The notes beneath the pieces are model-generated. The model saw only the letters and a program-made list of their open reading frames with translations. It had not been told where the DNA came from and searched no databases. A stretch of DNA of 64,000 bases, taken from a virus. Position numbers and translations under genes: made by a program. The stretch spans positions 24,064 to 88,063 of the IMG/VR virus record IMGVR_UViG_3300006028_000002; one strand, 5' to 3'. This document shows, piece by piece, positions 6,278 through 61,789 of the stretch (positions are counted from its first letter, which is position 1; each line of letters starts with the position of its first letter).

Positions 6278-6299
6278 TCTTTTAACCAGGATCAGGGAG

Positions 6300-6335: not shown

Positions 6336-6360
6336 TGCTCCGGTAGCTCGTCAGTACCTC

Positions 6361-6389: not shown

Positions 6390-6432
6390 CAGCAGTGTCA
6401 GGCAAGCAAGAACCGCCCAGGAGATGATTTCA

Positions 6433-6744: not shown

Positions 6745-6769
6745 TCAATTGCAGAGGGAGTGATCTGAG

Positions 6770-47354: not shown

Positions 47355-48269
47355 TTAGTCTTCGGCAGCCAGCAGCGCAGCATGCACCAGGCCGATCGAG
47401 CGACCCATCCGCACCGGCTCGACGTCCACCGGGGCCCCGTTGCTGCGTACCGCGTTGGTCTGCTCCAACGGCCGGAAACGCCGGTCCAGAGCGCGCCACG
47501 CGGATCGAGCGGCGGCCTCCGGCCAGTCATCAACCTGATCGATCATCCGGCGGGCGCGCTCCCCGATGTGCGTCCGCGGGTTGGCCCCGAAATTGACCGC
47601 CGAAACGTCGCCGGCATGCAGGTCCAGCTCCATCAAGGTGAACTCGCTGAAATCAGCCGACCATTGGCCGTCCACCAGCATGGCGGCGAAAGACATCTGA
47701 TCTACGCACCCGTCACGGATACCGGTGATCAGGTTTCGGACGTCGGTGCGCTCCGGGTTGAGCCACGCCTCGGCCGTCAAGCCCTCCGGGCCACTGGACA
47801 GCGACAGGGAGCCGGCCCTGGTCCTCGCCATCGTCAAACCTTCATGATTGACCAAAAACGCTACATCAGGTTGACGCTGAAGGGACGCGCTGAAAGCGTC
47901 GCGAGAAACCCGCTCCGTGTAGGGACCGTAAAAATCCCACATCTCATAGGGCGTTTCGGTGACACTCGCCACGCCGGACAGATGAATCCATTCAGCGTTA
48001 AGATCTGGAGAATCCCCCGCTGCGGCACGCTCCCAGAATTGTTTGCCCCCGCAGGCGCAGATCACCGAATCCTCGCTGCACGAGCACGCGCGCTTGGCGA
48101 GAAACTCTTTTTTGGCGGTCATCGCACTGCGGAATGTGAGAACCCGCGGTGTGTCCACGTCCACCGGCATGCGGCGCCGAGCCCGGCTGATGTCCGCACT
48201 ACCGGTCCCGTTCATCAGAGCGTCCCGGCGGGCCAGTGCTGCGCTCTCCCGGGAAATCGTCGTATCCAT
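47355..48269 (-). CDS. Prohead protease (S78/U35-like) with Cys cluster
   Basis: 304 aa, ATG 48269 after GGGAG. His142 in FLVNHEG and Ser193 in QMSFAA with SSGPEGLTAEAWL between them mark the caudovirus prohead protease. Residues 62-75 contain CxC ... CxCGG (four Cys), an unusual putative zinc site. It presumably cuts the capsid delta domain and perhaps other head proteins. Confidence 0.9.
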   Translation of the reverse strand: MDTTISRESAALARRDALMNGTGSADISRARRRMPVDVDTPRVLTFRSAMTAKKEFLAKRACSCSEDSVICACGGKQFWERAAAGDSPDLNAEWIHLSGVASVTETPYEMWDFYGPYTERVSRDAFSASLQRQPDVAFLVNHEGLTMARTRAGSLSLSSGPEGLTAEAWLNPERTDVRNLITGIRDGCVDQMSFAAMLVDGQWSADFSEFTLMELDLHAGDVSAVNFGANPRTHIGERARRMIDQVDDWPEAAARSAWRALDRRFRPLEQTNAVRSNGAPVDVEPVRMGRSIGLVHAALLAAED

Positions 48270-48321: not shown

Positions 48322-48573
48322 CTATGAGCTTGCTGATCCGCTGGACGCGGCAGACGGTGTGGATGGCGCGTCATCATCGTCACCATCGGGCTCAGTGTCA
48401 TTGTCCGGTGGATTAAGAAACCCGGGGGCACCGAAAAACCCTTTTTCTTTTTCCTTGTCTTTCGCCGCGCATTCAGCGCAACAACCGCACCCCCGGCACA
48501 CGTGCGCACGCCCGGCCGCAGTCATACCTCGCCGGGTCACGCTGCGCATCATCGGTCTACTGGCGCGGCGCAT
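48322..48573 (-). CDS. Arg-N/acidic-C small protein D
   Basis: 83 aa, ATG 48573, two bases after the stop of 48576. MRRASRPMMRSVTRRGMTA start, a CRGCGCCAEC cluster, then acidic DNDTEPDGDDDD and APSTPS. Member of the repeated family described in findings. An overlapping frame at 48318 is a shadow. Confidence 0.7.
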   Translation of the reverse strand: MRRASRPMMRSVTRRGMTAAGRAHVCRGCGCCAECAAKDKEKEKGFFGAPGFLNPPDNDTEPDGDDDDAPSTPSAASSGSASS

Positions 48574-48575
48574 GG

Positions 48576-48938
48576 CTATGAGCCCAGCTCATCGAACCAA
48601 TTCATCACGGCGCCCTGGTGCTCCTCCTCGCCGGGCATCTTCTCAGCCTCGCGACCCGCTTCTTTGGCCTCTTTTTCCTCAGTACCGATCAGCTCGGCGG
48701 GTGATTCCGGACCGTCCCCGCCGCCGTCCGGGCCTTTTTCGCTCGGTGTGGTGGGTGCGCCCGAGTCATTCGGTGCGGACGTCTCGGCGTCCTGTACATC
48801 GGCCAACGTGGCGCGGGACACCACACCCGGCGGGAGAACCACCGTATACCGGTGCACCGGGGCCGCTGCCACTCGCGCAGCCTTGGCGGGGGTAAGGCGT
48901 TGCACCGGGACAGTGCCGGCGCGCTGGTGCTTATCCAT
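48576..48938 (-). CDS. Arg-N/acidic-C small protein C
   Basis: 120 aa, ATG 48938 with AGGAG nine bases upstream. Shares the string LADxQDAxxxAPNxxGxPxTP with protein B, then becomes strongly acidic (EKEAKEAGREAEKMPGEEE). Between B and D in the head operon. Confidence 0.72.
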   Translation of the reverse strand: MDKHQRAGTVPVQRLTPAKAARVAAAPVHRYTVVLPPGVVSRATLADVQDAETSAPNDSGAPTTPSEKGPDGGGDGPESPAELIGTEEKEAKEAGREAEKMPGEEEHQGAVMNWFDELGS

Positions 48939-48963
48939 GGTCTCTAACTCCTGGGGGTTGTCT

Positions 48964-49194
48964 TTACTCGTCCGGGATTTCTGCCTCATCGAGGCACGGT
49001 GCGCCGCCCTGCATCTGATTGAGGTCCACCCAGGCCGCGCCGGGGGCATGTCGGGTAGGGGTCATCGGGATACCTGTGCTGTTGGGTGCTGCGTGCGTGG
49101 CATCCTGGAAATCGGCCAACTCGCGATGGACCCGGGAACCGGATACAGCTCTGCGCGCCGGGGCCCCGGTGCTGCGCTGGGTGGGTCGTTTCAT
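48964..49194 (-). CDS. Arg-N/acidic-C small protein B
   Basis: 76 aa, ATG 49194 (ATGA overlap). MKRPTQRSTGAPARRAV start, then ELADFQDATHAAPNSTG as in protein C, ending acidic (CLDEAEIPDE). Confidence 0.72.
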   Translation of the reverse strand: MKRPTQRSTGAPARRAVSGSRVHRELADFQDATHAAPNSTGIPMTPTRHAPGAAWVDLNQMQGGAPCLDEAEIPDE

Positions 49195-49724
49195 GACGGA
49201 TTGCCTTTCTTGTCGGGGAAATCCACACCCGGGACGGGTGCCGCATCCGGTGGGAATTTGTGCGGTTCGCCCTCGGTGAGATCGCCCGCGCTCGGGGCCG
49301 CCTCCGGGGGGTGTGTCAACTCGGGTGTCTGCACCTGGGAAGGGGGAACAGGCGCCGCGTCCGGTGGTTCCATGCCCGGAATCCGATAATCCGGTTTCTG
49401 ATCATCTGATTCTTTTTCCACGTATCCGCTGGTGGGATCATCGGGATCCGGTTTCGATCCCTCCGGTATATGCAACGGTGCCGGATTGTCCGCGTCGGTC
49501 CGTTCCTCATCCGCCGAGCTGTCCTCAGTTTTCGGGTGGGTCGACTGGAGAAAAGGATCATCATCAGAGGGTGTGGTGGGCACGTCGTCACTGTTGGCCA
49601 GCGGGGGCGCTTCCACGCCTTGTGCCGCGCGATGCACCGGGGCACCCGGTATAGCTCGAACCACCGGCACCCCGCGCCGGGTCACCCGCCGGGGTACGCG
49701 GCTACGCGTAGTGTGTGGCGCCAT
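49191..49724 (-). CDS. Arg-N/acidic-C protein A
   Basis: 177 aa, ATG 49724 after GGGGGG, overlapping the portal 3' end by 23 bases. SRVPRRVTRRGVPVVR start, then a long acidic, Pro-rich, disordered region with DDVPTTPSDDD. Largest member of the family; repeated DAAPVP near its end. Confidence 0.72.
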   Translation of the reverse strand: MAPHTTRSRVPRRVTRRGVPVVRAIPGAPVHRAAQGVEAPPLANSDDVPTTPSDDDPFLQSTHPKTEDSSADEERTDADNPAPLHIPEGSKPDPDDPTSGYVEKESDDQKPDYRIPGMEPPDAAPVPPSQVQTPELTHPPEAAPSAGDLTEGEPHKFPPDAAPVPGVDFPDKKGNPS

Positions 49725-50991
49725 TAGTCGCCCCCCGATCTCCCACCGCTGGATGGGTCGGCTTAAACGGTTCGGGCTTATCAGGCGACATATCAGGGGG
49801 TTTCCCCATCGGCATCGGGCCACGGGTCGGCCAGAACCGCTCGAACTCGGCGATCTGCGCATCCGTCATCGGCGGCAGATCTTCCATCAACCGGGCCTCG
49901 GACGGGGCCAGCACCCGGGATTGGATGCGGTGCGCCACCACTTCCGCGCGAGTCGCCGGGTCCATGCGCAACAGCGAGTCGGTGTCGAGACGCACAAACT
50001 GCCTGTTAGGCAACAGTTTGTTGAGCGAGTTCTCTCGGCGCCGGATCGCCGGGCCTAGGCTCATAATAAGTAGTTGCAGGTTGCGTTGCACCACATTGGC
50101 GTACGTCACGCTACTGCCAGAAATAGCCGCGTCAATCAGATCGGCCGGGCAGTCCAAGAATCGGGCGATCTCGGCCAGCCCGATGCTGCGCGCCTCCAGC
50201 CATTCCATGCCGGTCTGTTCGGCCTGGATGAGTTTGTATTCCCAGTCTTTACCGGTGACCAGCACATCGCCGGAGCGAATGCTTTCCTTAGCGCGGGCCT
50301 TGATTTCCTCGGCCTGTAAATTGGTCAGAGTCGGCAGCACCGTATTCTGCATATGGCCCCGCGGAATGCCACCACTCGTAAACCAGGAAATGGCGAAATC
50401 CTGTATAGAGAGGTGTTCCCCGATGCACCATGCCGCGTACATCAAGGGGGACAGACCTAAATGAAAACCGGGCACCGTGTATTGCTTCTCATGCCAGATC
50501 TGATCCGGTCGGTATGATTTACCACGGATCATGTATTCCACAAGTACGTTATCGATGACGTTGACGCTCACCCAGGCCAGAGGCACCAGCTCAATCTCAG
50601 CAGGCAGGCCATAACCATTGCGCTGGGTGATGATCCCTATCGTGTTCCCCGCGCGGTCCAGGTCGAATTGCGTTCCCCACATAAACTCCAGATAGTCGAC
50701 CTCCTGGCCGCCCGGGTTGAGGATCACCGGGGGTGTCTCCACCTTGACGTGGGGCAAACCGTATTGCGCGCGGCGGAACACATCCACCGGCATCGTACTG
50801 ATCAGGTTAGCGCGCAGCCGCAAACACGCCCACACCGCCGAATGCCGTAGCGCGGATTCTGAGTTAATCATGTGGCCGGGGGCGATCTGCATACCCAGCC
50901 GATGCGGTATCACGTCACTGGCAGAAGCACCAGGAAACTCGCCCCAGTACGGTCCCTCGATGTTCGCGGTGCGTTTGAAAAACAGGCCCAC
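49702..50991 (-). CDS. Portal protein, HK97 type
   Basis: 429 aa, GTG 50991. LRHSAVWACLRLRANLISTM, LNPGGQEVDYLEFMWG and LIDAAISGSSVTYANVVQ are typical of HK97-like portals. Position between terminase and protease confirms. The Pro-rich C-terminus may be disordered. Confidence 0.92.
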   Translation of the reverse strand: MGLFFKRTANIEGPYWGEFPGASASDVIPHRLGMQIAPGHMINSESALRHSAVWACLRLRANLISTMPVDVFRRAQYGLPHVKVETPPVILNPGGQEVDYLEFMWGTQFDLDRAGNTIGIITQRNGYGLPAEIELVPLAWVSVNVIDNVLVEYMIRGKSYRPDQIWHEKQYTVPGFHLGLSPLMYAAWCIGEHLSIQDFAISWFTSGGIPRGHMQNTVLPTLTNLQAEEIKARAKESIRSGDVLVTGKDWEYKLIQAEQTGMEWLEARSIGLAEIARFLDCPADLIDAAISGSSVTYANVVQRNLQLLIMSLGPAIRRRENSLNKLLPNRQFVRLDTDSLLRMDPATRAEVVAHRIQSRVLAPSEARLMEDLPPMTDAQIAEFERFWPTRGPMPMGKPPDMSPDKPEPFKPTHPAVGDRGATNGATHYA

Positions 50992-51016
50992 AATTCCCGC
51001 CTGCCTTTCCAGTTAG

Positions 51017-51373
51017 CTACTCTTTGGCCAGCCAGGCGAATCGCCACCACGTGCGCACGATCACCGAGGGCACCTGCGGGATGTCTTTCGATCGAGTAAC
51101 CGGTGGTCGGCCCGGTGGCGCGGGTTGTGTCGCGCCAGCGCGTCCACCGAGCCAGTCCCCGAGCCAGCCGGCGGCCAGCAGCACCGCCCCGGCCATCACC
51201 AGAAACCCGGGCCAGCGCACCAGCTCAAATGCGGCGATCCCGAGCCCGGCGGCGATCGCCACCACCGCGGCCAGCTCCAGACACAGGATCACGATCTCGT
51301 GCACCAGGGGGGACAGCGTTGGCCGACCCTGGGTGGTGCGGCCCGGATGCAGGTCAGTGACAGCCGTGGTCAA
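51017..51373 (-). CDS. Membrane protein between terminase and portal
   Basis: 118 aa, TTG 51373 overlapping the terminase stop, GGAGAG upstream. Two helices (EIVILCLELAAVVAIAAGLG, FLVMAGAVLLAAGWLG) then a basic tail. Unusual inside a head operon; contains CGTGCGCACG at 51050. Function unknown. Confidence 0.68.
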   Translation of the reverse strand: MTTAVTDLHPGRTTQGRPTLSPLVHEIVILCLELAAVVAIAAGLGIAAFELVRWPGFLVMAGAVLLAAGWLGDWLGGRAGATQPAPPGRPPVTRSKDIPQVPSVIVRTWWRFAWLAKE

Positions 51374-52863
51374 TGCACACTCTCCAGCACGTTGTAAGTG
51401 GGTGCGGCGTAACGCACCAGGCCGTACAGCGCCTCAGCAACTACCGTGACCGGGGTGATGTCCGCTGCGCTGACCATGCGACCGAACGCCCAGCCACCGT
51501 CGCCCACATTGCGCTTACGCGCCGCCCTGATTGCCGAGGTGACGCATTCCTGGCCGAGGTGGCGTAGTTGATCCCGGGTCGACACCGCTTTGAGCAGATG
51601 CCCGCACGCCTGGCTCAACTCAGCGCCTTTGATCGGGGTGATGCCGGGATCCCCGGTGGGGGTGACCCCGATGCCGGCTTTGATCAGTGCGGGCAGTAGC
51701 GCGCCGGCCGGTCCGGAGGTGTCCACCATCCAGAGGGTGGGGCCCCACACCGCGTCCAGTTCTTTCGCGCGGGACACCATCCAGTCGATGCCCCGGCGGT
51801 GATCCAGCTGCCCGTCTTTGTTGGTGATCTCCACATGAGGGATCCGGTCGGCGCGATAGCCGGCGACCCCGATGGCCCCGCTGGTCAGTCCCTCGGCCAC
51901 GTCCAACGCGAACACGAGCCCGCCGCGGGGTTGGCTGTCCGGATCCACCAGGGACAGCCAGGCGCCCAGGTGGATGATCGCCATGCCGCCCGGGTCATCC
52001 CAGGCGCAGAGCACCTCGCGGTCAAACTCGGCGGCATCCATGCTGCGCAGTGCGCGGCGCATCGTGTTGAAAGTGACTCGATCGCCCAATGCGGGGTTGG
52101 CCTGCGCCCAGGCTATGGGCATCTGCCGCACGTAATCGGGTGCGTCGTGGAAAGCGTCATCTACTGACCACTCATAGTAGGCCAGTTCCGGCTCTTGATT
52201 GATGCCGCGCATCCGAACCTGACGCAGTGCGGTGGAATTCGCCATGCCCGCCATCGACACGTACCATATCTGCCAATTACTGCGGGCAAACATAATAGGC
52301 ATCATGGCGCCGACCATTTCATTGGTAAGCGCGAAAGCCTCATCGAAAAATATGATGTCATATCCGGCCCAACCACGGGCCGCAGAGGATGTGCGAGCAA
52401 CAAAATCTATTCGAGCGCCGTTTTTGAGGCTGATGCTCTGTTCCTCATTGCTCATGCGGATCTGTTTAACCTCTTGATCGAGGCCCGGCACCGACTCGAT
52501 GCGCCACTGGATGCGCTCGCGGATCTTGCGGCTGGTGGCCATGAGGTGCGAGGTGTAGACCATTTTGTACTGCCGTAGAAACAGCCCGTTGAGGGTGGCG
52601 ATCTCCACACAGGCGCCTTTGCCGCTCTGTCTGCCCACCACCAGACCGACCTCGGGGGCCGTCCAGTTGCCTTGCTCATCCATACCCAGTGCACCGTCCA
52701 GCACCCGGCGCTGCCACGGGTCGGCAATCAATCCGGAGAGCTCGGCCAGCTCACAGGCTTCCGGGCCGGATGTCTTGAGGTAGGGGGGCACCAGTTCAAT
52801 TCGCGGTGCCTGGTCACCCCGCAGATTCGCCCATCTGTCGGCGCCTGCGCTCGCGGAGTTCAT
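51370..52863 (-). CDS. Terminase large subunit
   Basis: 497 aa, ATG 52863 (a TTG precedes it). ATPase: Walker A-like GRQSGKG (77-83), Walker B IIFFDEA (169-175). RNase-H-like nuclease acidic residues include Asp320 (FALDVAEG) and Asp380 (WMVDTSGP). It translocates and cuts DNA during packaging into the HK97 head. Confidence 0.93.
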   Translation of the reverse strand: MNSASAGADRWANLRGDQAPRIELVPPYLKTSGPEACELAELSGLIADPWQRRVLDGALGMDEQGNWTAPEVGLVVGRQSGKGACVEIATLNGLFLRQYKMVYTSHLMATSRKIRERIQWRIESVPGLDQEVKQIRMSNEEQSISLKNGARIDFVARTSSAARGWAGYDIIFFDEAFALTNEMVGAMMPIMFARSNWQIWYVSMAGMANSTALRQVRMRGINQEPELAYYEWSVDDAFHDAPDYVRQMPIAWAQANPALGDRVTFNTMRRALRSMDAAEFDREVLCAWDDPGGMAIIHLGAWLSLVDPDSQPRGGLVFALDVAEGLTSGAIGVAGYRADRIPHVEITNKDGQLDHRRGIDWMVSRAKELDAVWGPTLWMVDTSGPAGALLPALIKAGIGVTPTGDPGITPIKGAELSQACGHLLKAVSTRDQLRHLGQECVTSAIRAARKRNVGDGGWAFGRMVSAADITPVTVVAEALYGLVRYAAPTYNVLESVH

Positions 52864-53107
52864 CAAGTGGACTCCGTTCCGGCATGACGTCCGGTGCCGG
52901 CGGCATCCTCAGCCGTTCCCAGCGGTCGGTGAGCTTGCGCAGATCGGCCAGCGCAAGGCGTACCTGGGACGCGGCCGGGTTATGACCCTCATCGAACCGC
53001 TGGGCGCAGCGCCGGCCCATCTCGATGAGACCGCACGCACTGTTGCGCACATCCGGGGGGAGCTGGGCTACCTCGCGCTCGAAAGCATCTGCCAGACTAT
53101 CGTCCAT
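52814..53107 (-). CDS. Terminase small subunit-like protein
   Basis: 97 aa, ATG 53107 with AGGAG ten bases upstream; overlaps the large subunit start by 50 bases. Short helical protein (ALADLRKLTDRWERLRM) with basic C-terminus, at the terS position. Assignment is mainly positional. Confidence 0.62.
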   Translation of the reverse strand: MDDSLADAFEREVAQLPPDVRNSACGLIEMGRRCAQRFDEGHNPAASQVRLALADLRKLTDRWERLRMPPAPDVMPERSPLDELRERRRRQMGESAG

Positions 53108-53356
53108 GATCCCGTCACTCCTGTTGCATATTCCCGGCCTCACCGCCATGCAACGCCCGCCGCAACACGTCTGCCACCCGCCCGAGAAAGGTAGCGAGGG
53201 GGAACTGTGGCGATGTTTCTGCGGATATCGCTGGCGTTGCGCGCGACCCAATTCATGGACCACCAACCGCGGCGCTGTTGTGTTTCCCGCAGAATGGCGC
53301 AGGTATCGTTGGCCTTGGCCTAGACTTCCCTGACTTTATAAACGGTTTACCCTAGT

Positions 53357-53788
53357 TTACGTATCTTTTGCCAACTTGGCGATCAGTTCATCCTGCGCAA
53401 ACAAATGTGCCTGAAGTTGCAAAGACTCGTGCAACAATGCTTCTGCATCATTAAACGTATCTAAAGCTCGCTTATCCGCTGCCGATGCCTGAACGGACTG
53501 ACCCACCAAAATGATTGACAGCAGGACCAATTGCAGGAAAGTCTGAGCGATCCACTGCACGATACCGAGCACACCCTGATGAATAGCCCCCGGTAAACCC
53601 ACCAACGCAATGGCACCGAACAGATACGCGCAGGTCATGGAGCCCACGAAACCTGTAATCTTCACCGCCAACCGAGCATTACACCTCGCATAAGCGGTAG
53701 AGGTGTCGTACTGGTCATTTACCCGCGCCGGGTCTCGGTGCCGGCGTCGAGCGCGCTGCGGGTGCGGCGTGTAGGTAAAGAGACTCAT
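53357..53788 (-). CDS. Two-helix membrane protein with amphipathic tail
   Basis: 143 aa, start 53788. Basic N-terminus with RRRHRD, two membrane helices (residues about 45-70 and 76-98), then an acidic helix HESLQLQAHLFAQDELIAKL. Resembles a DUF1003-like pattern only loosely. Divergent from the PLP enzyme gene with 35 bp between starts. Confidence 0.65.
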   Translation of the reverse strand: MSLFTYTPHPQRARRRHRDPARVNDQYDTSTAYARCNARLAVKITGFVGSMTCAYLFGAIALVGLPGAIHQGVLGIVQWIAQTFLQLVLLSIILVGQSVQASAADKRALDTFNDAEALLHESLQLQAHLFAQDELIAKLAKDT

Positions 53789-53823
53789 CCGTATCCTGTC
53801 CCCCGGGCGCTCGTTAACGCTCC

Positions 53824-55218
53824 ATGAGATTCCCCCGCGAGCACGCTGATTATCACCCCGACATCATTGGACCGCTGCGCGTCATCGAGTTTTCCCGGCT
53901 CGGTGATGAAGTCTATCTCGACTACACGGGCGCCGCACTCTATCCGGAGTCACTGGTCATGGATCACTTGTGGGATCTGCGCGGTAACGTATATGGCAAT
54001 CCGCATTCCGACTCACCGGCCAGCCAACGCGCTACCGAGATAATGTCCACGGCACGCGCTGCGGTACTGCGATTCTTTAACGCCGACCCCGATGAATACA
54101 CCGTGGTATTCACCGCGAATGCCACAGCGGCCATGCAACTGGTGGGCTTATCATATCCGTTCCAGCCAGACAGTCTGTTTCTCTACACCGCCGATGTACA
54201 CAATTCGGCGCTCGGGTTGCGGGAACTAGCTCGGGACATCAAATGCACGGTAGGTTACCTGCCGCTGCAATCGGATCTGCGGGTCTCCGATACCGAGGCG
54301 ATGCTGACCCTCAACTCCCATGCGGGTGGGCTGTTCACATACCCGGCGCAATGCAATTTCAGCGGAGTACACCATCCCCTGTCGTGGATCAACGCGGCAC
54401 ACAATCTGGGCTGGCGGGTGCTGCTGGACGCTGCTGCGTTCGTGCCCACCAACCCGCTGGATCTGCGCAGGTTCCCGGCTGATTACGTCGCGGTCAGCTT
54501 TTATAAGATCTTCGGTTATCCCAGCGGCATCGGGGCTCTGATCGCTCGTCGCGAGGCGCTGGAGGAGTTGCAGCAACCCTGGCACGCCGGGGGCAGCACC
54601 CGGGCCGCCTCGGTGGCCGGCGACTGGTACCACCTGGCCGCTGGAGCGGACGCGTTCGAGCACGGCACCGTCAACTATCTGGCCGCCGCCGCCGTCACGC
54701 GAGGGCTGGAGTACATCAGCGCACTCGGGCTGGCCCAGATCCATGACCGGGTGCAGCTGTTGACCGGCTGGACGCTGGCTGAGCTGGCGAACCTGCATCA
54801 CAAGGGGGGCGAGCCCCTCATCCGGCTCTACGGTCCGCTCGGGATCGAGCAACGCGGGGCTGCCATCACTTTTAATCTGCTCGATCCCTCCGGCGCACCG
54901 GTTGACGAGCGGATCGTGGCAGCCCGGGCGCGCGAGCAGCACATCTCGCTGCGCACTGGATGCTTCTGTGCGCCCGGTGCCGCCGAGACGGCGTTTGCGC
55001 TCGATCCGGCCGATCTGGTGGCCGCGGGGGAGCTGCCGGCGGACGCGCCCATGGACGCCTATCTGGACACCCTGGGCATGCCCACCGGGGGCGCCATCCG
55101 GATCAGCTACGGGCTGGCCAGCAACGCCGCAGACGCCGAGCGTTTTCTGGAGTTCGCAGCCACGTTCGCCGATGCGCGGCCAAGCGAGGACAACCTACCG
55201 GCCCGAGTACATTGCTAA
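53824..55218 (+). CDS. Class V aminotransferase, molybdenum-cofactor-sulfurase-like
   Basis: 464 aa, ATG 53824. YLDYTGAALYPESLV (31-45), NVYGNPHSDS (55-64), PLP-contacting Asp202 (LLDAAAF), Schiff-base Lys228 (SFYKIFGYPSGIG) and the persulfide Cys380 in LRTGCFCAPG (377-384). These match the N-terminal desulfurase domain of MOCOS/Mo-cofactor sulfurases more than IscS/SufS. No C-terminal MOSC domain. It should take sulfur from cysteine; the acceptor is unknown. It reads against the virion operon, just outside terS. Confidence 0.87.
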   Translation: MRFPREHADYHPDIIGPLRVIEFSRLGDEVYLDYTGAALYPESLVMDHLWDLRGNVYGNPHSDSPASQRATEIMSTARAAVLRFFNADPDEYTVVFTANATAAMQLVGLSYPFQPDSLFLYTADVHNSALGLRELARDIKCTVGYLPLQSDLRVSDTEAMLTLNSHAGGLFTYPAQCNFSGVHHPLSWINAAHNLGWRVLLDAAAFVPTNPLDLRRFPADYVAVSFYKIFGYPSGIGALIARREALEELQQPWHAGGSTRAASVAGDWYHLAAGADAFEHGTVNYLAAAAVTRGLEYISALGLAQIHDRVQLLTGWTLAELANLHHKGGEPLIRLYGPLGIEQRGAAITFNLLDPSGAPVDERIVAARAREQHISLRTGCFCAPGAAETAFALDPADLVAAGELPADAPMDAYLDTLGMPTGGAIRISYGLASNAADAERFLEFAATFADARPSEDNLPARVHC

Positions 55219-55221
55219 GTC

Positions 55222-55293
55222 GTGTCGCTCGGGTGGGGCTTCCTGGTGGCCGGTGGCCTGACCACGCTGGTGCTCGTGCTGCGGTGCTGGTGA
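55222..55293 (+). CDS. Possible 23-aa membrane peptide
   Basis: GTG 55222, three bases after the PLP-enzyme stop, ending TGA 55293. VSLGWGFLVAGGLTTLVLVL is one membrane helix. No separate binding site; coupling to the enzyme is possible but chance cannot be excluded. Confidence 0.3.
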   Translation: MSLGWGFLVAGGLTTLVLVLRCW

Positions 55294-55296
55294 GAT

Positions 55297-55449
55297 CTAG
55301 CGGGTGCACACCACCGTGTAGCCGGCATCGTTGAGCACCCGCAACACATGCCAGGCCAGATCCGCGCTGATGCCATGTGTCAACGTATTTTTGCTAACGC
55401 CCTCGGTCAGCGCGCGAACCACGTCATCTGAGTCGGCGGCTTTCGTCAT
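55297..55449 (-). CDS. 50-aa late-type protein
   Basis: ATG 55449 overlapping the upstream stop; TAG 55297. MTKAADSDDVVRALTEGVS then LAWHVLRVLNDAGY, a helical pattern frequent in small actinophage proteins. Unknown. Confidence 0.62.
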   Translation of the reverse strand: MTKAADSDDVVRALTEGVSKNTLTHGISADLAWHVLRVLNDAGYTVVCTR

Positions 55450-55682
55450 CCCGTCCACCGTTCCCTCCCATCGGCGTGCCGGATACGCAGGCCGAATCCA
55501 GTATGCGTGACTGGCGCGCTCACCCGCTCCGTGATCGGTCCCGGGGTCTCACCCTCTGGCTGAGGTTTAGGCTTGCCCTCCGGTTTGGGCTCGAGGGCAA
55601 CCGGTACCGGAGGTGGCGCCGAGTTACCCAGCACCTCCAGCGACACCGGGACAAGCCCGAACAATGACAGGGTGATTTTCAT
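55446..55682 (-). CDS. Small protein with hydrophobic start and Lys/Pro/Glu linker
   Basis: 78 aa, ATG 55682 (coupled). MKITLSLFGLVPVSLEVLG is a common opening of small actinophage proteins; then KPEGKPKPQPEGETPG linker and GFGLRIRHADGRE. Possibly membrane-associated. Confidence 0.68.
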   Translation of the reverse strand: MKITLSLFGLVPVSLEVLGNSAPPPVPVALEPKPEGKPKPQPEGETPGPITERVSAPVTHTGFGLRIRHADGRERWTG

Positions 55683-55837
55683 CAGACCACCAGCACGGCA
55701 AAACAGAATGCCAGGATAAAGAGCACCACGGCCAAGATAATCGATATCATGGATGGTGTCGGACCCGGCAACAAATGTGCTGCGGCGAAAAACACCAACC
55801 CCAGCGCGATAAGCGCCGGATAAAGCGCAGCGTGCAT
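55682..55837 (-). CDS. 51-aa two-helix membrane protein
   Basis: ATG 55837 with AGGAGG seven bases upstream; TGA overlaps the next ATG. Two helices: LIALGLVFFAAAHLL and ISIILAVVLFILAFCFAVLV. Unknown. Confidence 0.65.
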   Translation of the reverse strand: MHAALYPALIALGLVFFAAAHLLPGPTPSMISIILAVVLFILAFCFAVLVV

Positions 55838-55849
55838 GCTCACCGCCTC

Positions 55850-55966
55850 CTAACCGAATATCCCGTGCAGAATGCCCAGCATAGCTGCGGTGAATAGCAC
55901 GAAAACAAGAATCAAGAGCATCGCCTGGCACAACTCACGGCACCAGTCAAACCAGCGCGACTCCAT
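55850..55966 (-). CDS. 38-aa single-helix membrane protein
   Basis: ATG 55966 overlaps the upstream stop (TGATG); TAG 55850. MESRWFDWCRELCQAM then LLILVFVLFTAAMLGIL. Real by coupling and composition. Confidence 0.6.
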   Translation of the reverse strand: MESRWFDWCRELCQAMLLILVFVLFTAAMLGILHGIFG

Positions 55967-56163
55967 CAGTCTTGATCAAACGGCGCAACGTTGGTGTCCG
56001 ACTCCGGATCATTGTCACCGCCGTCAAACTTCCCACGATCAACATCTGGCGCTGCGCCACTGTCATCCGCGTCGCGAACCACGCCGGGTCGCCGCACCGC
56101 CCGACCAAGCACCCCACGGCGCCCTGGGGGCACCGCACTACGCCTGCTAGCACCCGGACGCAT
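55966..56163 (-). CDS. Arg-N/acidic-C small protein E
   Basis: 65 aa, ATG 56163 with AGGAGGTG upstream. MRPGASRRSAVPPGRRGVLG start, then Asp-rich tail (FDGGDNDPESD). Same bipolar layout as the 48-49 kb proteins. Confidence 0.7.
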   Translation of the reverse strand: MRPGASRRSAVPPGRRGVLGRAVRRPGVVRDADDSGAAPDVDRGKFDGGDNDPESDTNVAPFDQD

Positions 56164-56332
56164 TCGCGCCACCTCCTGCTGCATCGTCGTCGCCGTCATC
56201 GTCGCGGGTCACCTGCGGAGTGGCATCGGCAGCCGCCTCATCCGCCCGAGTCGTCCACTGGCCACCGCGGATAGGCCGCCGGGTATGCAGCGGCACCGCA
56301 CTGCGCAGACTACGCACACCGGTCCGTTTCAT
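56147..56332 (-). CDS. Arg-N/acidic-C small protein F
   Basis: 61 aa, ATG 56332. MKRTGVRSLRSAVPLHTRRP start, RDDDGDDDAAGGG tail. Overlaps E by 17 bases. Confidence 0.68.
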   Translation of the reverse strand: MKRTGVRSLRSAVPLHTRRPIRGGQWTTRADEAAADATPQVTRDDDGDDDAAGGGANASGC

Positions 56333-56601
56333 CAGTCATCATCATCCTTTTTTGGAATGGTGTCGTTATCGTGGTCGGTGTCGTCGTCCTTTTTCTCGTC
56401 TTCGGCGCGAGCCTCCAGGGCCTCTTTACCGTCTTTGTGCTCGTCGCTCTGTTTCGGATCTTTATCTTTATCGTCACTGTCGTCATCGGCACGGCGGACC
56501 GGAATGCTCACCGGGGCACTACGGGTTGTCTGCACCGCTGGCGACTGGCGCGTCACAACGCGCGGAATCGCATTACGACTGACTGCTGTTGTTCGTTTCA
56601 T
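56332..56601 (-). CDS. Arg-N/acidic-C small protein G
   Basis: 89 aa, ATG 56601 with GGGGAC upstream; a coupled ATG at 56685 would add 28 residues. MKRTTAVSRNAIPRVVTRQS start and an extremely charged Asp/Lys tail. The family signature supports 56601. Confidence 0.68.
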   Translation of the reverse strand: MKRTTAVSRNAIPRVVTRQSPAVQTTRSAPVSIPVRRADDDSDDKDKDPKQSDEHKDGKEALEARAEDEKKDDDTDHDNDTIPKKDDDD

Positions 56602-56681
56602 GTCGTCCCCTAAAGCTAATCGTGACCACCGGGTGGACTTATAGCGCGTACTCGGCGGCATGGTCGGCATCCCGCGGATAG

Positions 56682-56855
56682 TCATGCACTACTCGCTGAG
56701 CTGGCCCGGCCGATGTTGACTTCCGCAGCGGGTGTCCCCAGTGGGTGTTCCGCCTTCTCCTGCATCAACAGGTGCGCCTGATGTGTATCCCCATGCGCAT
56801 CCGGGTAACGGGTGACGATGCTGCGGCGCTGCTGACGCCCGGTGGATCGCCTCAT
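56682..56855 (-). CDS. Arg-N small protein H
   Basis: 57 aa, ATG 56855 with AGGAGG nine bases upstream, ATGA overlap with the 56852 gene. MRRSTGRQQRRSIVTRYPDA start; tail only mildly acidic. Shares the Arg-rich start of the family. Confidence 0.66.
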   Translation of the reverse strand: MRRSTGRQQRRSIVTRYPDAHGDTHQAHLLMQEKAEHPLGTPAAEVNIGRASSASSA

Positions 56856-57364
56856 GCTGATGCCTCCTGCCAGTTATCGCCGATACCAAACATGACCGCC
56901 TGAGCCAAGCCCAACCAACCCGCGCTCGGCAACGTCATGTGCTCGCCGTTGATGACGAGTGCCTCCAGCTCAGCCCGGCTGATGTGCAGCTCGGTAACCA
57001 GCACGCCGGCCACGTAGTCGAGGGTCGCGGCGGACGGGGCCCGGGACAACCGATAGCGGTACAGCCGCCGGAGCAGCTCGATCGGCTCGCCCAGATAGGT
57101 CAGGCCAGCGTAATTGCGCTCCGGAGCGAACCCCCAGGGCACCAGCACGACCGCCCAGCGGCCGGAACTCTCCGCCGAACCGTAGAGGGCCTGGCACTGG
57201 CCGGCGTGGCGCGCATCCGGCTCATTGGCATACAGCGCGCGCATCTGGCTCTGGGCCGAGTCCTCTGAATCGTGGCACGCGATGATCTCACCAGAGCCAC
57301 TCTTGATGACGGCCCACGGTTTCGCTGGCGGACAGTCGTCGGACCGCTCCACTTTCCACGGCAT
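56852..57364 (-). CDS. Head-operon protein with WAVIKSGSGEI domain
   Basis: 170 aa, ATG 57364 after GGAGA. KPWAVIKSGSGEIIACHDS then AQSQMRALYANEPD is a small domain I have seen fused to or beside actinophage capsid proteases; the rest is alpha/beta. Likely head-associated; function unknown. Confidence 0.68.
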   Translation of the reverse strand: MPWKVERSDDCPPAKPWAVIKSGSGEIIACHDSEDSAQSQMRALYANEPDARHAGQCQALYGSAESSGRWAVVLVPWGFAPERNYAGLTYLGEPIELLRRLYRYRLSRAPSAATLDYVAGVLVTELHISRAELEALVINGEHMTLPSAGWLGLAQAVMFGIGDNWQEASA

Positions 57365-57368
57365 CGCT

Positions 57369-57617
57369 TTAGTCTCCGCCCACCGGGGCACCAGGGCCAG
57401 CGCACAAGCCAAAACAATCTTTAAGACCCATGGACCCTAAAATGGTGTCGTCCTGTTTAATCTCGCTTCCTTCGGCAAGCTCGCCCTCTTCTTTCCGACC
57501 TTTCGGCTCATCAAAACCGAATTTAGTAATCGAGGCGCCCGTGCTCGGTAACTGGCGTGCCATGCCACGTCGGGGCGCACCCAGTGATGCTCGAGAAGTA
57601 CTACGCCGCATGGACAT
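57369..57617 (-). CDS. Arg-N/acidic small protein J
   Basis: 82 aa, ATG 57617 in TGATG overlap with protein K (ATG 57611 alternative). MSMRRSTSRASLGAPRRGMA start, middle acidic (KEEGELAEGSEIKQDD), short Cys pair near the end. Confidence 0.68.
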   Translation of the reverse strand: MSMRRSTSRASLGAPRRGMARQLPSTGASITKFGFDEPKGRKEEGELAEGSEIKQDDTILGSMGLKDCFGLCAGPGAPVGGD

Positions 57618-58000
57618 CACCCACTACCATCAGGATTGTGATCGCCGTGGCCGATGTAATACGCGAGACTCGGATCGGATTCTTTCATCGCCTCCGGATC
57701 CTCCGCATATTTGGCGTCCAGCATGTCCGCGTTGGAATTAGGATCCGGCGGAGGTGACAAACCCATATCCTGAGCCGCATCACGGCACAACTGTCCCCGA
57801 GAGCCGGCCCGCTCCGGATCCTCACCATTGCCCCGGTCATCGTGGGCCTCACCGTTCGGTCCGGTAGAGGGCACCGATCCGGGGGGCGCGTCCGCGTCAT
57901 CGTCCACCCAGAACTTATCGCCCCGGCGCAGCGCGACACGCACAACAGGGCGCCCGGTAGAGGTTCGACGCATTCCGGGTATCGCGGTGGTCCGTCTCAT
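57617..58000 (-). CDS. Arg-N/acidic-C protein K
   Basis: 127 aa, ATG 58000 after GGGAG. MRRTTAIPGMRRTSTGRP start, WVDDDADAPPGS and long acidic disordered region with Cys at RGQLCRDAAQ. Confidence 0.72.
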   Translation of the reverse strand: MRRTTAIPGMRRTSTGRPVVRVALRRGDKFWVDDDADAPPGSVPSTGPNGEAHDDRGNGEDPERAGSRGQLCRDAAQDMGLSPPPDPNSNADMLDAKYAEDPEAMKESDPSLAYYIGHGDHNPDGSG

Positions 58001-58012
58001 GAGGGCTCCCTT

Positions 58013-58219
58013 TTAATACCAGCTGTTGAGTGGGTCATCGCCCTTGGACTCCTCGCCCGCAAGCTCGTCACCGCTGCCCATGGTGCCAGGGGACACATCC
58101 GACTCGAATGGCTCGTCTGATTCGCCAAAAGCGTTATATGTGCGCCGCACCCGGACATCCTGTACTCGCCGGCTGACCAAACCCAGCGCCCGGTTTCTGG
58201 CAACATTGTTTCGGCGCAT
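58013..58219 (-). CDS. Arg-N/acidic-C small protein L
   Basis: 68 aa, ATG 58219 after GAGGAC. MRRNNVARNRALGLVSRRVQ start, then ESDEPFESDVSPG acidic tail. Confidence 0.7.
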   Translation of the reverse strand: MRRNNVARNRALGLVSRRVQDVRVRRTYNAFGESDEPFESDVSPGTMGSGDELAGEESKGDDPLNSWY

Positions 58220-58411
58220 CTAGTCCTCGATCCTCACGACTCGGTAACGCTCCGCTGATTCGGCGAACACCCCGGACGCATTTGTATTACTCAAACTGAT
58301 GCACAGCACATCATCAGCTAAGCGTGCGTAGACCTGGCCCACAAACACACCGTTACGAAAATGCGCCTCACCAAACCCGTACTCATCCAACCATTCACTC
58401 AAGATGCTCAC
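58220..58411 (-). CDS. Small alpha/beta protein
   Basis: 63 aa from GTG 58411, adjoining the HNH stop. VSILSEWLDEYGFGEAHFRN with beta strands VFVGQVYARLADDVLCISL; ends RYRVVRIED. A TTG at 58480 would add 23 Pro-rich residues overlapping the HNH gene. Unknown. Confidence 0.6.
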   Translation of the reverse strand: MSILSEWLDEYGFGEAHFRNGVFVGQVYARLADDVLCISLSNTNASGVFAESAERYRVVRIED

Positions 58412-58413
58412 GG

Positions 58414-58764
58414 CTACCAGCTGCGGGACGCGAGGCCCCGGGTCTCCCAGATCGGGCGGACGCGCCGGGTCGGATGCCAACCCAGCCTGCGGCGCAGATC
58501 ATTCGACAGCCGCACATTGCAGCCGAAATGACAGGGGGTGTGATTCGCCGGGTCCATGGGGTCGCCGCCGATCCACAACTCGACAATGTGGTGCACGGTC
58601 GGGGCCATCGGATGCCGCGGGTTGATCTTACGCAGGCCGTAGTCGATGCGACCCCCGCAGCCATAACAGGGCGTGGCATTGAGCTCGCCGGCCTCCAGAC
58701 AGGCATTCTGCGCTTTGTACCAGCGGTGACCTTTGCGCCCGGCCGAGGGATACGCGGTAGCCAT
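58414..58764 (-). CDS. Terminase-associated HNH endonuclease
   Basis: 116 aa, ATG 58764. CYGCGGRIDYG, PTVHHIVELWIGGDPMDP and CHFGCNVRLSND form the HNH domain with structural zinc, the type that sits upstream of terminase genes and helps cos cleavage. Here it heads the leftward late region. Preceded by a 280-bp non-coding region that may contain cos or the late promoter. Confidence 0.87.
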   Translation of the reverse strand: MATAYPSAGRKGHRWYKAQNACLEAGELNATPCYGCGGRIDYGLRKINPRHPMAPTVHHIVELWIGGDPMDPANHTPCHFGCNVRLSNDLRRRLGWHPTRRVRPIWETRGLASRSW

Positions 58765-59045
58765 TGCGCACCCCCGGGTAAGTCCAAGATCATTTTGAAC
58801 CGCACAATTTTAGTCCAGAGATTTTAAGGCATAGGGATAGCACATCCTCGATCGCGAACTCTAAAAAAACGAAAACATTTAACGCCCGCGTCGCGATCAT
58901 GAAACAAAGTATTATCCCCACCGCGCTCATTACCCTATGTAATGTCACCCTGAGTAGCAGTGGAAAGAGTCACGAAACGTAACTACCCACGTTTGGTAAT
59001 TGGTTTTCCAGCCCAGCTTGCTAGCGCACCGCTGCTGCGGCCATG
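58765..59045. other. 281-bp AT-rich intergenic region
   Basis: No gene. AT-rich tracts (58855-58900) contrast with the surroundings. Two TAAAAT boxes on the reverse strand (58812-58807, 58826-58821) could be -10 elements for the late operon. It lies just before the HNH gene, where cos or pac sites often occur, but no ends can be seen from sequence alone. Confidence 0.55.
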
Positions 59046-59441
59046 TCACGTAGCGTCATCAGGGCCAGAGTCGTAGCTGGTGGTGCTCTCAGTATCCAGG
59101 TGGTTGTGATCTGCGGAGTTGCCCGAGTTGGACACACCAGGCACCTGTACCTGGTCGGCAGCGTCGTTGGTGAAGCTGTAGCTGAACTCGCGGCGCGCCA
59201 TGGGGCGCCCATCACCCAGCAGTAGCGCCGCAGCAGCGGCACCAGCACCCAGGCCGGCTGACTGCCAGTCCACCGACTCCTGCTCATGCGTACCAGGACG
59301 CGCCTCGCCGGTACGGCCCGCGGCGACTGCTGCTGACGCGCTCGGCAGCGTGGGATCGACGTCACTAGGTGTGGTCGGTGGGTGTCCGCCGCGCCGCATC
59401 GGCGTGCGCACGGTGGATCGGTTTGCCCGGGTGTATCGCAT
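59046..59441 (-). CDS. Arg-N/acidic-C protein O
   Basis: 131 aa, ATG 59441. MRYTRANRSTVRTPMRRGG start, PPTTPSDVD, then HEQESVDWQSAGLGAGAAAA and an acidic tail. The PTTPS and PGTHExES strings recur in protein P at 61330. Divergent from the integrase. Confidence 0.72.
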   Translation of the reverse strand: MRYTRANRSTVRTPMRRGGHPPTTPSDVDPTLPSASAAVAAGRTGEARPGTHEQESVDWQSAGLGAGAAAAALLLGDGRPMARREFSYSFTNDAADQVQVPGVSNSGNSADHNHLDTESTTSYDSGPDDAT

Positions 59442-59502
59442 TGCGATCACGCCTTTCCGCTGTATGACTATGCAGCGCGCAGTGCGCACCCCACCAGGAA
59501 TC

Positions 59503-59534
59503 CACGATACTGTAGACATATCGTGTGCTAGAAT
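59503..59534 (+). promoter_or_regulatory. Integrase promoter/operator inverted repeat
   Basis: CACGATA (59503-59509) and TATCGTG (59519-59525) flank a 9-base spacer, followed by TAGAAT (59529-59534), a -10-like box eight bases before the integrase ATG. A regulator bound here could block integrase expression. Confidence 0.55.
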
Positions 59535-59541
59535 TTGTCAC

Positions 59542-60528
59542 ATGGAGATCCTCCCGGCACCCATGCCGGACCACGAAACCACGCGCCTGTCCACCATTGA
59601 GACCGCGGCTAAAGCTCTACTCAATTCAGACCTAGCCGAGAACAGCCGCCGAGCGTTCGCCACCGACTGGCGCCACTGGCAACAATTTTGCGCAAACGAA
59701 AACATCGACCCGCTATGCGTATCCTCTGGCCTGCTGGTTGCGTTCGTAACCTGTCTTGCACACGACACGCCAGCCCGCAAAGCTCAATCGCCCGCCACTC
59801 TCCAGAGACGGCTAGCAGGAGTACTGCACGGATGGAAGCAAGCCGGGTGCACCATTCCACACGCAATTAGCGCCGACGCGCTCCGCATCATCCGCTCCTA
59901 CGAGCGAAACCTACGTCGAGAAAACCTCCCCACCGGACGCGGTAGCGCTCCGGCGATCACCATTGATGACCTACGCAAAATCTCTGCGACTTGTCCCAGC
60001 TCACTCGCGGGGATGCGCGACCGAGCATTAATTTTGCTTGGTTTCGCTATCGGAGCTCGCAGATCTGAGTTGGCCGCGCTGCTCGTCACCGATATCAAAG
60101 TCACAGACGAGGGATTAGTCGTAACCCTCCGAGACTCCAAAACCGGATATCGACAACCCCACGTACTGCCTGGCACCGATGGGCTGACCTGTCCCGTACG
60201 CGCCTGGCTAGCTTGGCGCTTCGCTGCGGAGCTTACTGAAGGGTCTGCATTTTGGATGGTGAACAAACACGGAGATCTTGTCCGACCACTGACCCCGCAG
60301 GCAGTCGGCAACATCGTCACTCAAGCGGGCAACCGGGCAGGATGCGCCGCGCGGTTCACTGGGCACTCGCTACGAGCTGGACTGGCCACCGAGGCGCGCA
60401 AGGCCGGGCACGACCGCTGGGCCATCGCAGACCAGGGCGGATGGCAACGCAACTCAGCCGTGCTCGACAGGTACATACAGATCGTAGATCGCTGGTCCGA
60501 CAACGCACTCAAGGGGATAGGTCTCTAA
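59542..60528 (+). CDS. int: Tyrosine recombinase (integrase)
   Basis: 328 aa; ATG 59542 chosen over upstream starts because the promoter-like box and SAM-like core domain begin here. N-terminal core-binding domain (residues 15-125). Catalytic set: Arg173 (GARRSEL), Lys200 (DSKTGYR), His275/Arg278 (HSLRAG), Trp301 in the second His position, and Tyr311 (VLDRYI). Expected to integrate the phage at a host att site; attP cannot be located by eye. Confidence 0.93.
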   Translation: MEILPAPMPDHETTRLSTIETAAKALLNSDLAENSRRAFATDWRHWQQFCANENIDPLCVSSGLLVAFVTCLAHDTPARKAQSPATLQRRLAGVLHGWKQAGCTIPHAISADALRIIRSYERNLRRENLPTGRGSAPAITIDDLRKISATCPSSLAGMRDRALILLGFAIGARRSELAALLVTDIKVTDEGLVVTLRDSKTGYRQPHVLPGTDGLTCPVRAWLAWRFAAELTEGSAFWMVNKHGDLVRPLTPQAVGNIVTQAGNRAGCAARFTGHSLRAGLATEARKAGHDRWAIADQGGWQRNSAVLDRYIQIVDRWSDNALKGIGL

Positions 60529-60769
60529 GTTCAGTCGCGCGGCGGCTGGTGCTAGCATGCCCGCCGAGCGGTAGGAGTCCGCTCGCAGTGAACAGCAGTG
60601 GAAGTGGTGACGGCCACCTCAGTGGCAGCAGGCCAGGGCTGTATGGATGCGCCCATGTCAACGGCGCTACCGGGAAGGCCCTGGCCTTTCCCATGGGCGT
60701 GCGCACGCGACCGAGAGAGAATCTACGGGGCGAAGCACTCACCCGCGCTGATCAGCAACGATGCACTGA
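60529..60769. other. 241-bp gap after integrase with hairpin and palindrome
   Basis: GGGAAGGCC (60672-60680) and GGCCTTTCCC (60683-60692) form a near-perfect hairpin, and CGTGCGCACG lies at 60698-60707. No supported gene. Could hold the integrase terminator and part of attP. Confidence 0.5.
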
Positions 60770-60952
60770 CTAAATGTCCAGCAGGTCCACGCAGTTGGCC
60801 AGGTTGACCAGGCCGGATCCCCCGCAGTTGGTGAACTCGTGATGGTGGCTGTTTTCGGTGATCGGGCCACTGTTGGTGGTGTCGGCAGCCGCGTACGCTG
60901 CACCGCCCAGCATGAGGCCAGCCACCAGGGCAGCACTCAGCAAAATCCTCAT
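60770..60952 (-). CDS. Small secreted protein
   Basis: 60 aa, ATG 60952 after AAGGGTG (GTG 60961 alternative). Signal peptide MRILLSAALVAGLMLGGAAY, cleavage near AYAAA. The mature part has HHH and two Cys (NCGGSGLVNLANCVD). Likely exported in the lysogen; unknown role. Confidence 0.68.
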   Translation of the reverse strand: MRILLSAALVAGLMLGGAAYAAADTTNSGPITENSHHHEFTNCGGSGLVNLANCVDLLDI

Positions 60953-61027
60953 CGGTGTCACCCTTCAGTCGCGGACCGTCGAATTGATCGGAACGGATAA
61001 GATCAGTACCCCGCGCCCAGTGCGGAA

Positions 61028-61333
61028 TCACGCAACCGGGGCAGAAGGCGCCGCGGAAACGGGCGGAGTGACCGGTATCGGCATCGTCGTCACTACCGGG
61101 GCCGGCATCGGGGTTGGGCTCGCGGTGGCTTTAATCGCCGCATGGCTGGCGGTAATGGTGGCCAGCTGTCCGGCGCCGCTCACATGCGCTTTGAATCCGC
61201 TCACCGTACCCGCGATCGTGGTCTGCGCCGGGTCCATGCCAAGACTGCGGCAGGCGGCGATGAAATTCTCCAGATCGGCCAGCGTGAGCGCGCCAGAATC
61301 GCTGCCCTCAGACAAGCTGCGCATCTGACTCAC
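61028..61333 (-). CDS. Small helical protein with Pro/Ala tail
   Basis: 101 aa, GTG 61333 overlapping protein P stop. LTLADLENFIAACRSLGMD then Ala/Thr/Pro-rich tail (PMPAPVVTTMPIPVTPP). Not recognised. Confidence 0.62.
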   Translation of the reverse strand: MSQMRSLSEGSDSGALTLADLENFIAACRSLGMDPAQTTIAGTVSGFKAHVSGAGQLATITASHAAIKATASPTPMPAPVVTTMPIPVTPPVSAAPSAPVA

Positions 61334-61536
61334 CGGCCGAAATGCACATTGATGCTCGGCATGACGTCACTGAGGAAACTTTCTTCCTCATGCGTACCGG
61401 GTGCAGCCTCATCCTCGCGCGCTTTGATTTTAAGCGCCTCGGTGGGCGTAGTGGGCGCATGCCCCGAGCTTCCGGCACTACCGCGAGCAGTCGATGACAC
61501 ACCGCGTCGCCCGGCAACACCCGATGATCTGCGCAT
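61330..61536 (-). CDS. Arg-N/acidic small protein P
   Basis: 68 aa, ATG 61536 after GGGGGGATC. MRRSSGVAGRRGVSSTARGS start, HAPTTPTEALK, APGTHEEESFLSD; the last string matches protein O. Outlying family member near the right end. Confidence 0.7.
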   Translation of the reverse strand: MRRSSGVAGRRGVSSTARGSAGSSGHAPTTPTEALKIKAREDEAAPGTHEEESFLSDVMPSINVHFGR

Positions 61537-61615: not shown

Positions 61616-61789
61616 TCAGTCGTCCCAGCACCAGCGATTCTCCCAGCAGAACCGGCGCCAGTTCCAGCAGCACTGGTAATGCCCGCGGTGGTGCTGCGGC
61701 CGGCGCCAGCGGTCATCACGGTCGTGGTCGTGATCGTTGCGCCCGCCGAGCGAGTTCAGGCCCATAGTGAAGGCGTCAGAAACCTGCAT
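61616..61789 (-). CDS. 57-aa His/Trp/Cys-rich protein
   Basis: ATG 61789 with GGGGAG eight bases upstream. NDHDHDRDDRWRRPQHHRGH then CCWNWRRFCWENRWCWDD. Dense His, Trp and Cys suggest metal binding. A longer start is possible. No family recognised. Confidence 0.55.
   Translation of the reverse strand: MQVSDAFTMGLNSLGGRNDHDHDRDDRWRRPQHHRGHYQCCWNWRRFCWENRWCWDD

Follow-up and report, generated by a model that had tools for sequence, protein, structure and literature searches.

What are the thirteen small leftward genes, arranged in two clusters, whose products begin with an arginine-rich (Arg-rich) head and, in all but one case, continue into an acidic tail? They lie in the 64,000-nucleotide stretch analyzed here (the window), which is bases 24064-88063 of the 88,063-base virus contig IMGVR_UViG_3300006028_000002 from IMG/VR. 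A first-pass annotation, made from the letters and reading frames, had picked them out as a family. We found that one subfamily holds the place between the portal and prohead protease genes across a clade of related viruses and carries a conserved linear motif. In the lineage of the window and its closest relative, contig L156, this subfamily has expanded to several copies at that place, and further genes with such heads lie upstream of the terminase genes. The family has probably not been described before. Judging from position and architecture, we see about an even chance that the proteins are internal (core) proteins of the procapsid.

Results

The thirteen genes

All 13 open reading frames (ORFs) are present on the minus strand, at 48322-49724 (cluster 1) and 55966-61536 (cluster 2). 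Gene calls came from a home-made codon model that cut several heads short, and starts were set by hand from reading frame, which fixed them, and Shine-Dalgarno evidence. For most of the 13 starts there is a Shine-Dalgarno-like sequence. The end of several genes abuts or overlaps the start of the next, and A begins 2 bases past the stop of B.

A, 48322..48573, minus strand: 83 amino acids (aa); head MRRASRPMMRSVTRRG with CRGCGCC cysteines; acidic tail with PSTPS
B, 48576..48938, minus strand: 120 aa; basic head; motif ETSAPNDSGAPTTPS; acidic tail ending MNWFDELGS
C, 48964..49194, minus strand: 76 aa; head MKRPTQRSTGAPARRA; motif LADFQDATHAAPNSTGIPMTPT; ortholog L156:14050-14262
D, 49191..49724, minus strand: 177 aa; head PRRVTRRGVPVVR; PTTPSDDDP; long acidic tail
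E, 55966..56163, minus strand: 65 aa; Arg-rich head; acidic tail ending NVAPFDQD
F, 56147..56332, minus strand: 61 aa; head MKRTGVRSLRSAVP; acidic tail; overlaps the start of E
G, 56332..56601, minus strand: 89 aa; head MKRTTAVSRNAIPRVVTR; tail 46% D+E; ortholog L156:1181-1369
H, 56682..56855, minus strand: 57 aa; head MRRSTGRQQRR; tail not acidic
I, 57369..57611, minus strand: 80 aa; head MRRSTSRASLGAPRRGM; acidic tail; no ortholog recognized
J, 57617..58000, minus strand: 127 aa; head MRRTTAIPGMRRTSTGRPVVRVALRRG; acidic tail; no ortholog recognized
K, 58013..58219, minus strand: 68 aa; head MRRNNVARNR; acidic tail
O, 59046..59441, minus strand: 131 aa; head MRYTRANRSTVRTPMRRGG; PTTPSD; PGTHEQES
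P, 61330..61536, minus strand: 68 aa; head MRRSSGVAGRRGV; PTTPT; PGTHEEES

The heads resemble one another beyond what composition predicts. The first-pass annotation gave M[KR]R[TS] as the common start; six of the 13 products have it in full and nine have M[KR]R, and B (MDKHQ), D (MAPHTT), E (MRPGAS) and O (MRYTRA) lack even the shorter form. None of the 112 other called genes of the 88-kilobase (kb) contig starts with M[KR]R (Fisher p ~5e-11, a value inflated because the genes had been selected on M[KR]R). With the selected residues 2-4 excluded, in-register similarity over head residues 5-12 had a z of ~3.2, reached by 1 of 500 shuffles; with those residues included, 16 of 78 head pairs had p <= 0.05, versus 3.9 expected. 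Of the RR or RRG described shortly after the start, RRG was borne out, occurring in seven heads (1.2 expected; 0 of 5000 shuffles), as were the frequent PTTPS-like tails, P-x-TP-[ST] occurring in six proteins (0.1 expected from shuffles). The strings LADxQDAxxxAPN, common to B and C, and PGTHExES, common to O and P, are also present as described. The annotation had named two findings on which the family would fall, N-termini alike in composition only and a lack of equivalents in related phages; the shuffle tests on the heads speak against the first, and the relatives described below (L156, L096 and contigs with a single such gene) against the second.

The signature belongs to the protein and not to the DNA. 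Its Arg codons vary by gene (CGC CGC, AGG CGA, CGG CGT, AGA CGG, AAA CGA and others) and it is therefore a protein-level feature rather than a DNA-level repeat; an origin of MRR from a Shine-Dalgarno-like AGGAGG or a repeat is ruled out by the differing codons. The variation argues for selection on the protein or for old duplications. Twin-arginine signal peptides were ruled out by eye, as no hydrophobic stretch follows RR.

The layout of charge is also shared. In all products except H, the first 35 residues have a net charge of +4 to +8 and the rest of -3 to -23. The remainder of H has a net charge of -1, and the acidic tails that had been ascribed to the whole set thus hold for 12 of the 13. 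A basic head with an acidic tail was found in only one of 79 other small called genes in the contig.

The similarities between clusters are suggestive of homology of the cluster 1 and cluster 2 heads, which may instead be convergent in composition. Cluster 2 is less secure than cluster 1: among the relatives examined, counterparts were recognized for G, H and K, in L156, and perhaps for E, in L096, and none for F, I, J, O or P.

Conservation in related viruses

A single gene of this kind occupies the portal-protease gap in much of the clade. Alignment scans with the portal and protease identified about 20 related contigs with portal identities of 63-73%, and a terminase scan added L156; all are metagenome contigs, mostly fragments. 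About 14 contigs other than L156 (portal 67-73%) have exactly one gap gene, of 130-170 residues, whose product has a basic front, an acidic middle and a C-terminal NxTGxPxTP[ST]G. The motif N-x-x-G-x-P-x-T-P-[ST] of these one-gene relatives is also in window B and C, and its residues A, N, G, P, T and P are invariant in all 13 aligned sequences, B and C included. A profile of the one-gene relatives alone, searched against 2280 six-frame ORFs, had four matches, all of them family members, including L096:1778-2128 (2e-4), L156 X (2e-4) and L156 B' (0.005). Window B had E = 4.8 in this search, not significant alone; in profile searches of their own genome, B was found at 3e-8 and C at 5e-9, with models that include these proteins.

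L156 (portal 82%, capsid 82%, terminase 68%) keeps B, C and D, and, upstream, G, H, K and a counterpart of a two-module protein encoded within cluster 2. Its portal-protease gap contains D' (13382-13873), X, C' (14050-14262) and B' (14264-14611), where X is an ORF of 58 residues within 13874-14053 (MRSRPVSRTSTPPTVSRRVG...PAKNYTGEPKTPT). B' and C' have near-identical heads (MTKHMHRATGAPTRRA and MTKYTHRTAGAPIRRG, respectively) but distinct tails. In L096, five such genes lie upstream of the terminase, including an ortholog of B (ending MNWLDELGS versus MNWFDELGS). Orthologs of B are at L156:14264-14611 and L096:1778-2128 (tblastn to L096 2e-11; alignment), and those of D are at L156:13382-13873 (44%) and, probably, L096:2130-2561 (27%). 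H and L156:813-1157 have QAHLLxQEKAxHPxG and IGRA in common, K and L156:1421-1660 have FGExDEPFxSDVxPGxMG in common, and E weakly resembles L096:1257-1457 (NVEPFPQD). L171, the contig of L156, has no P at the syntenic position.

The insertions are characteristic of one clade: in most of the more distant relatives, portal and protease are only 0-190 bases apart, and the same holds for L004, L005 and Mycobacterium phage Optimus. Within the relatives, the group L092/L159, L093, L094 and L095 has no gap gene, and L159 and L093 have a single basic-head, acidic-tail gene upstream of the terminase instead. The 900-nucleotide portal-protease gaps of L115, L127, L153 and L025 were set aside; judged from sequence, they are ClpP-like N-terminal extensions of the protease and not members of the gap-gene family.

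The genes are real, protein-coding and selectively maintained. The ratio of nonsynonymous to synonymous substitution rates (dN/dS) among the closest one-gene relatives was 0.10-0.30 for the whole gene and 0.05-0.30 for the first 40 codons, and was about 0.5 in two more distant pairs, ruling out non-coding or spurious ORFs. For the comparison of the window with L156 the ratios are only indicative, synonymous sites being close to saturated. An AlphaFold2 model of B from 13 aligned sequences had a mean predicted local distance difference test score (pLDDT) of 56 and a predicted template modeling score (pTM) of 0.12; this lack of a predicted fold is in line with an unfolded protein, and the shallow alignment also lowers confidence.

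The annotation had recognized no known family, and we found no relatives of these proteins in Pfam, PHROGs, NCBIfam, PDB or GenBank phages. PHROG matches were weak (E 0.04-0.5) and fell on charge-rich stretches of G and K, and GenBank phages searched with L156 B' and the gap gene of L086 gave no match at E up to 10.

Genome context

The head module of the window runs leftward through the terminase small and large subunits, a holin-like protein, the portal, D-C-B-A, the prohead protease and an HK97-type capsid protein, whose delta-like N-terminal region spans about 100 residues in the clade alignment. The terminase large subunit (TerL) had no matches as a single-sequence query.

Terminase large subunit, 51370..52863, minus strand: Pfam Terminase_6N 7.8e-5; tblastn to actinophage terminases
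Portal protein, 49702..50991, minus strand: upstream neighbor of D; Pfam Phage_portal 1.7e-40
Prohead protease, 47355..48269, minus strand: downstream neighbor of A; Pfam Peptidase_S78 1.1e-19
Major capsid protein, 45805..47226, minus strand: HK97 type with N-terminal delta-like domain; phrog_2263 2.5e-47; clade alignment
Two-module protein inside cluster 2, 56852..57364, minus strand: N-terminal module is residues 1-53

Placement of most of the genes beside those for portal, protease and terminase, as first described, is correct for cluster 1 and not for cluster 2 (E to P, 55966-61536), which is upstream of the terminase genes and starts 3-4 kb away from them. An aminotransferase class V gene on the opposite strand (53824-55218, plus strand; Pfam 1.4e-46) separates the two clusters, and its counterpart at L156:6197-7594 is likewise opposite in orientation. 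Genes for the two-module protein (56852) and an HNH endonuclease (58414), along with further small ones, are interspersed in cluster 2.

The N-terminal module of the two-module protein (about 50 residues, CPxxKPWAV...CHxSxxxAxxQxxALYANE) is predicted to fold as beta-beta-beta-alpha, with a pLDDT near 88. In L089 (L089:12003-12986) and L087 it is a fusion partner of the prohead protease, and in L173, L092's contig (L173:2676-2981), it is a stand-alone gene. A fold search with the two-module protein gave helix-turn-helix-like matches only, which we judged to be chance.

The prohead protease of the clade (47355-48269, minus strand, in the window) has a cysteine-rich insertion near its start (ACSCSEDSVICACGG; CECADGECTC in L092) that is not present in L004 or L005. 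Protein A (CRGCGCC) and L096:695-901 are also cysteine-rich. Next to cluster 2 is a small ORF rich in histidine, tryptophan and arginine (61616-61789, minus strand; ...CCWNWRRFCWENRWCWDD), with a counterpart on the reverse strand of L171 at 1443-1607 (...HWDRWHRWCWDD). Elsewhere in the window, two large ORFs (11592-12746 and 18319-19617, both minus strand) look by eye like an FAD monooxygenase and a cytochrome P450 and are possible auxiliary metabolic genes.

L089 carries a modification enzyme for ribosomally synthesized and post-translationally modified peptides (RiPPs) that belongs to the MbnB/TglH/ChrH family (Pfam 5e-95). Its neighbor is a ferritin-like protein, and the pair (L089:4319-5122 and 5315-7135, minus strand) is just upstream of the terminase genes. 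Because of this enzyme we considered RiPP-type leader/core precursors, and rejected them: no such enzyme was seen near the clusters of the window, whose products are long and acidic.

Discussion

If the proteins are internal components of the procapsid, they would be made together with the portal, protease and capsid protein and then enter the procapsid. The Arg-rich head, perhaps with the TP motif, would be a common docking signal for an internal partner, for which the capsid delta domain, the portal and the protease are candidates, and the gene-specific acidic tail would fill or shape the interior or do a gene-specific job before or after maturation. Our working model combines the gp67/gp68 core of phage T4 with the T4 internal proteins, which have a shared N-terminal targeting sequence and divergent bodies.

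The position of the genes fits the first part of this model. The products of T4 genes 67 and 68 are small, highly charged prohead core proteins (PMC9026906). In the T4 order 20 (portal)-67-68-21 (protease)-22-23, read from NC_000866, gp67 (PIP) and gp68 are exactly where D, C, B and A are in the window, D', X, C' and B' in L156, and the single gene in the one-gene relatives; cluster 2 does not have this position. Like the window proteins, the T4 pair is small and strongly charged, and it lies upstream of the capsid gene. However, gp67 has no Arg-rich head, the charges of gp68 are reversed (acidic start, basic end), and T4 has only two gap genes, a separate scaffold (gp22) and no HK97-type capsid delta domain. 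The one-gene profile scored -2.8 bits to gp68, and its sole match to gp67 was to an acidic run (6.8 bits with a bias of 8.3); because this test of homology failed, we do not claim membership in the T4 family.

The architecture fits the second part. T4 internal proteins have a capsid targeting sequence (CTS), a shared short N-terminal element on divergent bodies (PMC9026906, PMC3012670). The window heads, alike beyond composition, are comparable to the CTS of IPI-III and Alt, and the near-copy heads and differing tails of L156 B' and C' resemble a tag-plus-payload pattern like that of the T4 targeting sequence (PMC9026906, PMC3012670). The CTS is 10-19 residues long and ends in an L/I-x-E cleavage site, whereas the window heads are 20-60 residues long, Arg-rich and without a known cleavage site; the T4 bodies are folded and basic, whereas the window tails are predicted to be unfolded and acidic. 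In phage P1, an N-terminal stretch of DarB directs protein cargo into the head (PMC9024508). DarB is a 250-kDa anti-restriction protein and is likened to the window proteins by description only. The HK97 gp4/gp5 head module has a portal, an S78-type prohead protease and a delta-bearing capsid protein, as in the window; the portal-protease gap is empty in the HK97-type relatives L004, L005 and Optimus, unlike in the window.

Several observations weigh against internal procapsid proteins. There is no detectable homology to any head protein in the databases searched, and no common protease site is recognizable in these proteins. The capsid protein already has a scaffold-like delta domain, and a separate classical scaffold is therefore not required; nor did we find the classical arrangement of a helical gene upstream of a delta-less capsid gene, B being predicted to be unfolded. 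Cluster 2 is not adjacent to the head genes, and its heads are weakly tied to those of cluster 1. RRG is enriched in the heads, but cleavage there, which the annotation had suggested, is unsupported by the capsid protein: its delta/mature boundary (ARVGREERTYHKG) has no RRG, and none is present around this boundary in 18 major capsid proteins of the clade. A likeness of TGxPxTP to the capsid segment before this boundary (PTGAPKP in the window) was rejected as too short and not conserved as such.

The proteins might instead be adaptors of the protease or portal, neither core nor cargo, that act outside the head, or at its portal vertex, and that recruit the prohead protease (or the terminase) or hold it back by means of the TP motif and charged N-terminus. 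We consider this rather unlikely, even though nearly all clade members keep the gap position, the motif, short, linear and invariant within a protein that is otherwise unfolded, resembles a docking peptide, and the module fused to the protease gene in L089 and L087 is part of a cluster 2 protein in the window. More distant relatives with the same type of protease manage without a gap gene, and the reading does not account for as many as 13 copies whose tails differ.

Co-injected internal cargo that acts on the host or protects DNA after infection, with the head as a capsid-targeting and DNA-binding tag, is in our view unlikely. A common head, divergent tails and a gene number that ranges from 0-1 to about 13 among phages recall the T4 internal proteins (PMC3012670). 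However, no enzymatic or inhibitor domain is recognizable in the tails (Pfam, PHROGs and other family searches), and the conserved linear motifs and low dN/dS in close relatives oppose fast host-interaction evolution; the variable host-interaction set that had been proposed fits poorly because dN/dS is 0.1-0.3 there, heads included. Condensation of the packaged genome, with the Arg-rich heads neutralizing DNA, seems very unlikely: the heads do have a net charge of +4 to +8 and 4-9 Arg per 35 residues, but most of the proteins are net acidic as a whole (B +5/-14, D +8/-23), unlike the basic T4 internal proteins, and a DNA-condensing role fits poorly for this reason. That the genes are no family at all, but small late genes of a GC-rich phage that are unrelated and have only composition in common, we find hardly credible, since the weak pairwise head similarity (62 of 78 pairs within shuffle range, p > 0.05) and the abundance of Arg, Ser, Thr, Pro and Ala in this genome stand against in-register similarity outside the selected residues, the RRG, P-x-TP and M[KR]R enrichments and the near-copies among L156 paralogs. 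Where B, C, D and the one-gene relatives are concerned, the idea is already contradicted, though not for I, J, F, O and P.

Co-packaged head proteins or scaffold-like helpers are, by position and the T4 parallel, the best fitting of the roles first proposed, and that interpretation is partly supported overall. The underlying observation stands as to the 13 ORFs and a signature beyond chance, and needed correction as to details of the heads, the tail of H and the position of cluster 2.

We entertain, as a tentative possibility, that an HK97-type lineage evolved its own modular system of address label plus payload, independent of the T4 capsid targeting sequence, in which one Arg-rich, unfolded N-terminal label on a dozen small proteins, each with an acidic tail of its own, would load an internal set into the procapsid. 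Annotation usually labels genes in the portal-protease gap hypothetical or misses them, since their products are short, unfolded and not linked by standard searches. The peptide N-x-x-G-x-P-x-T-P-[ST] provides a concrete handle on the binding partner. If these are internal procapsid proteins, then the N-terminal label would be portable and a candidate for loading proteins into simple capsids, and a multi-protein core of the T4 style would not be confined to T4-like and giant phages, but would also have arisen on the HK97 plan.

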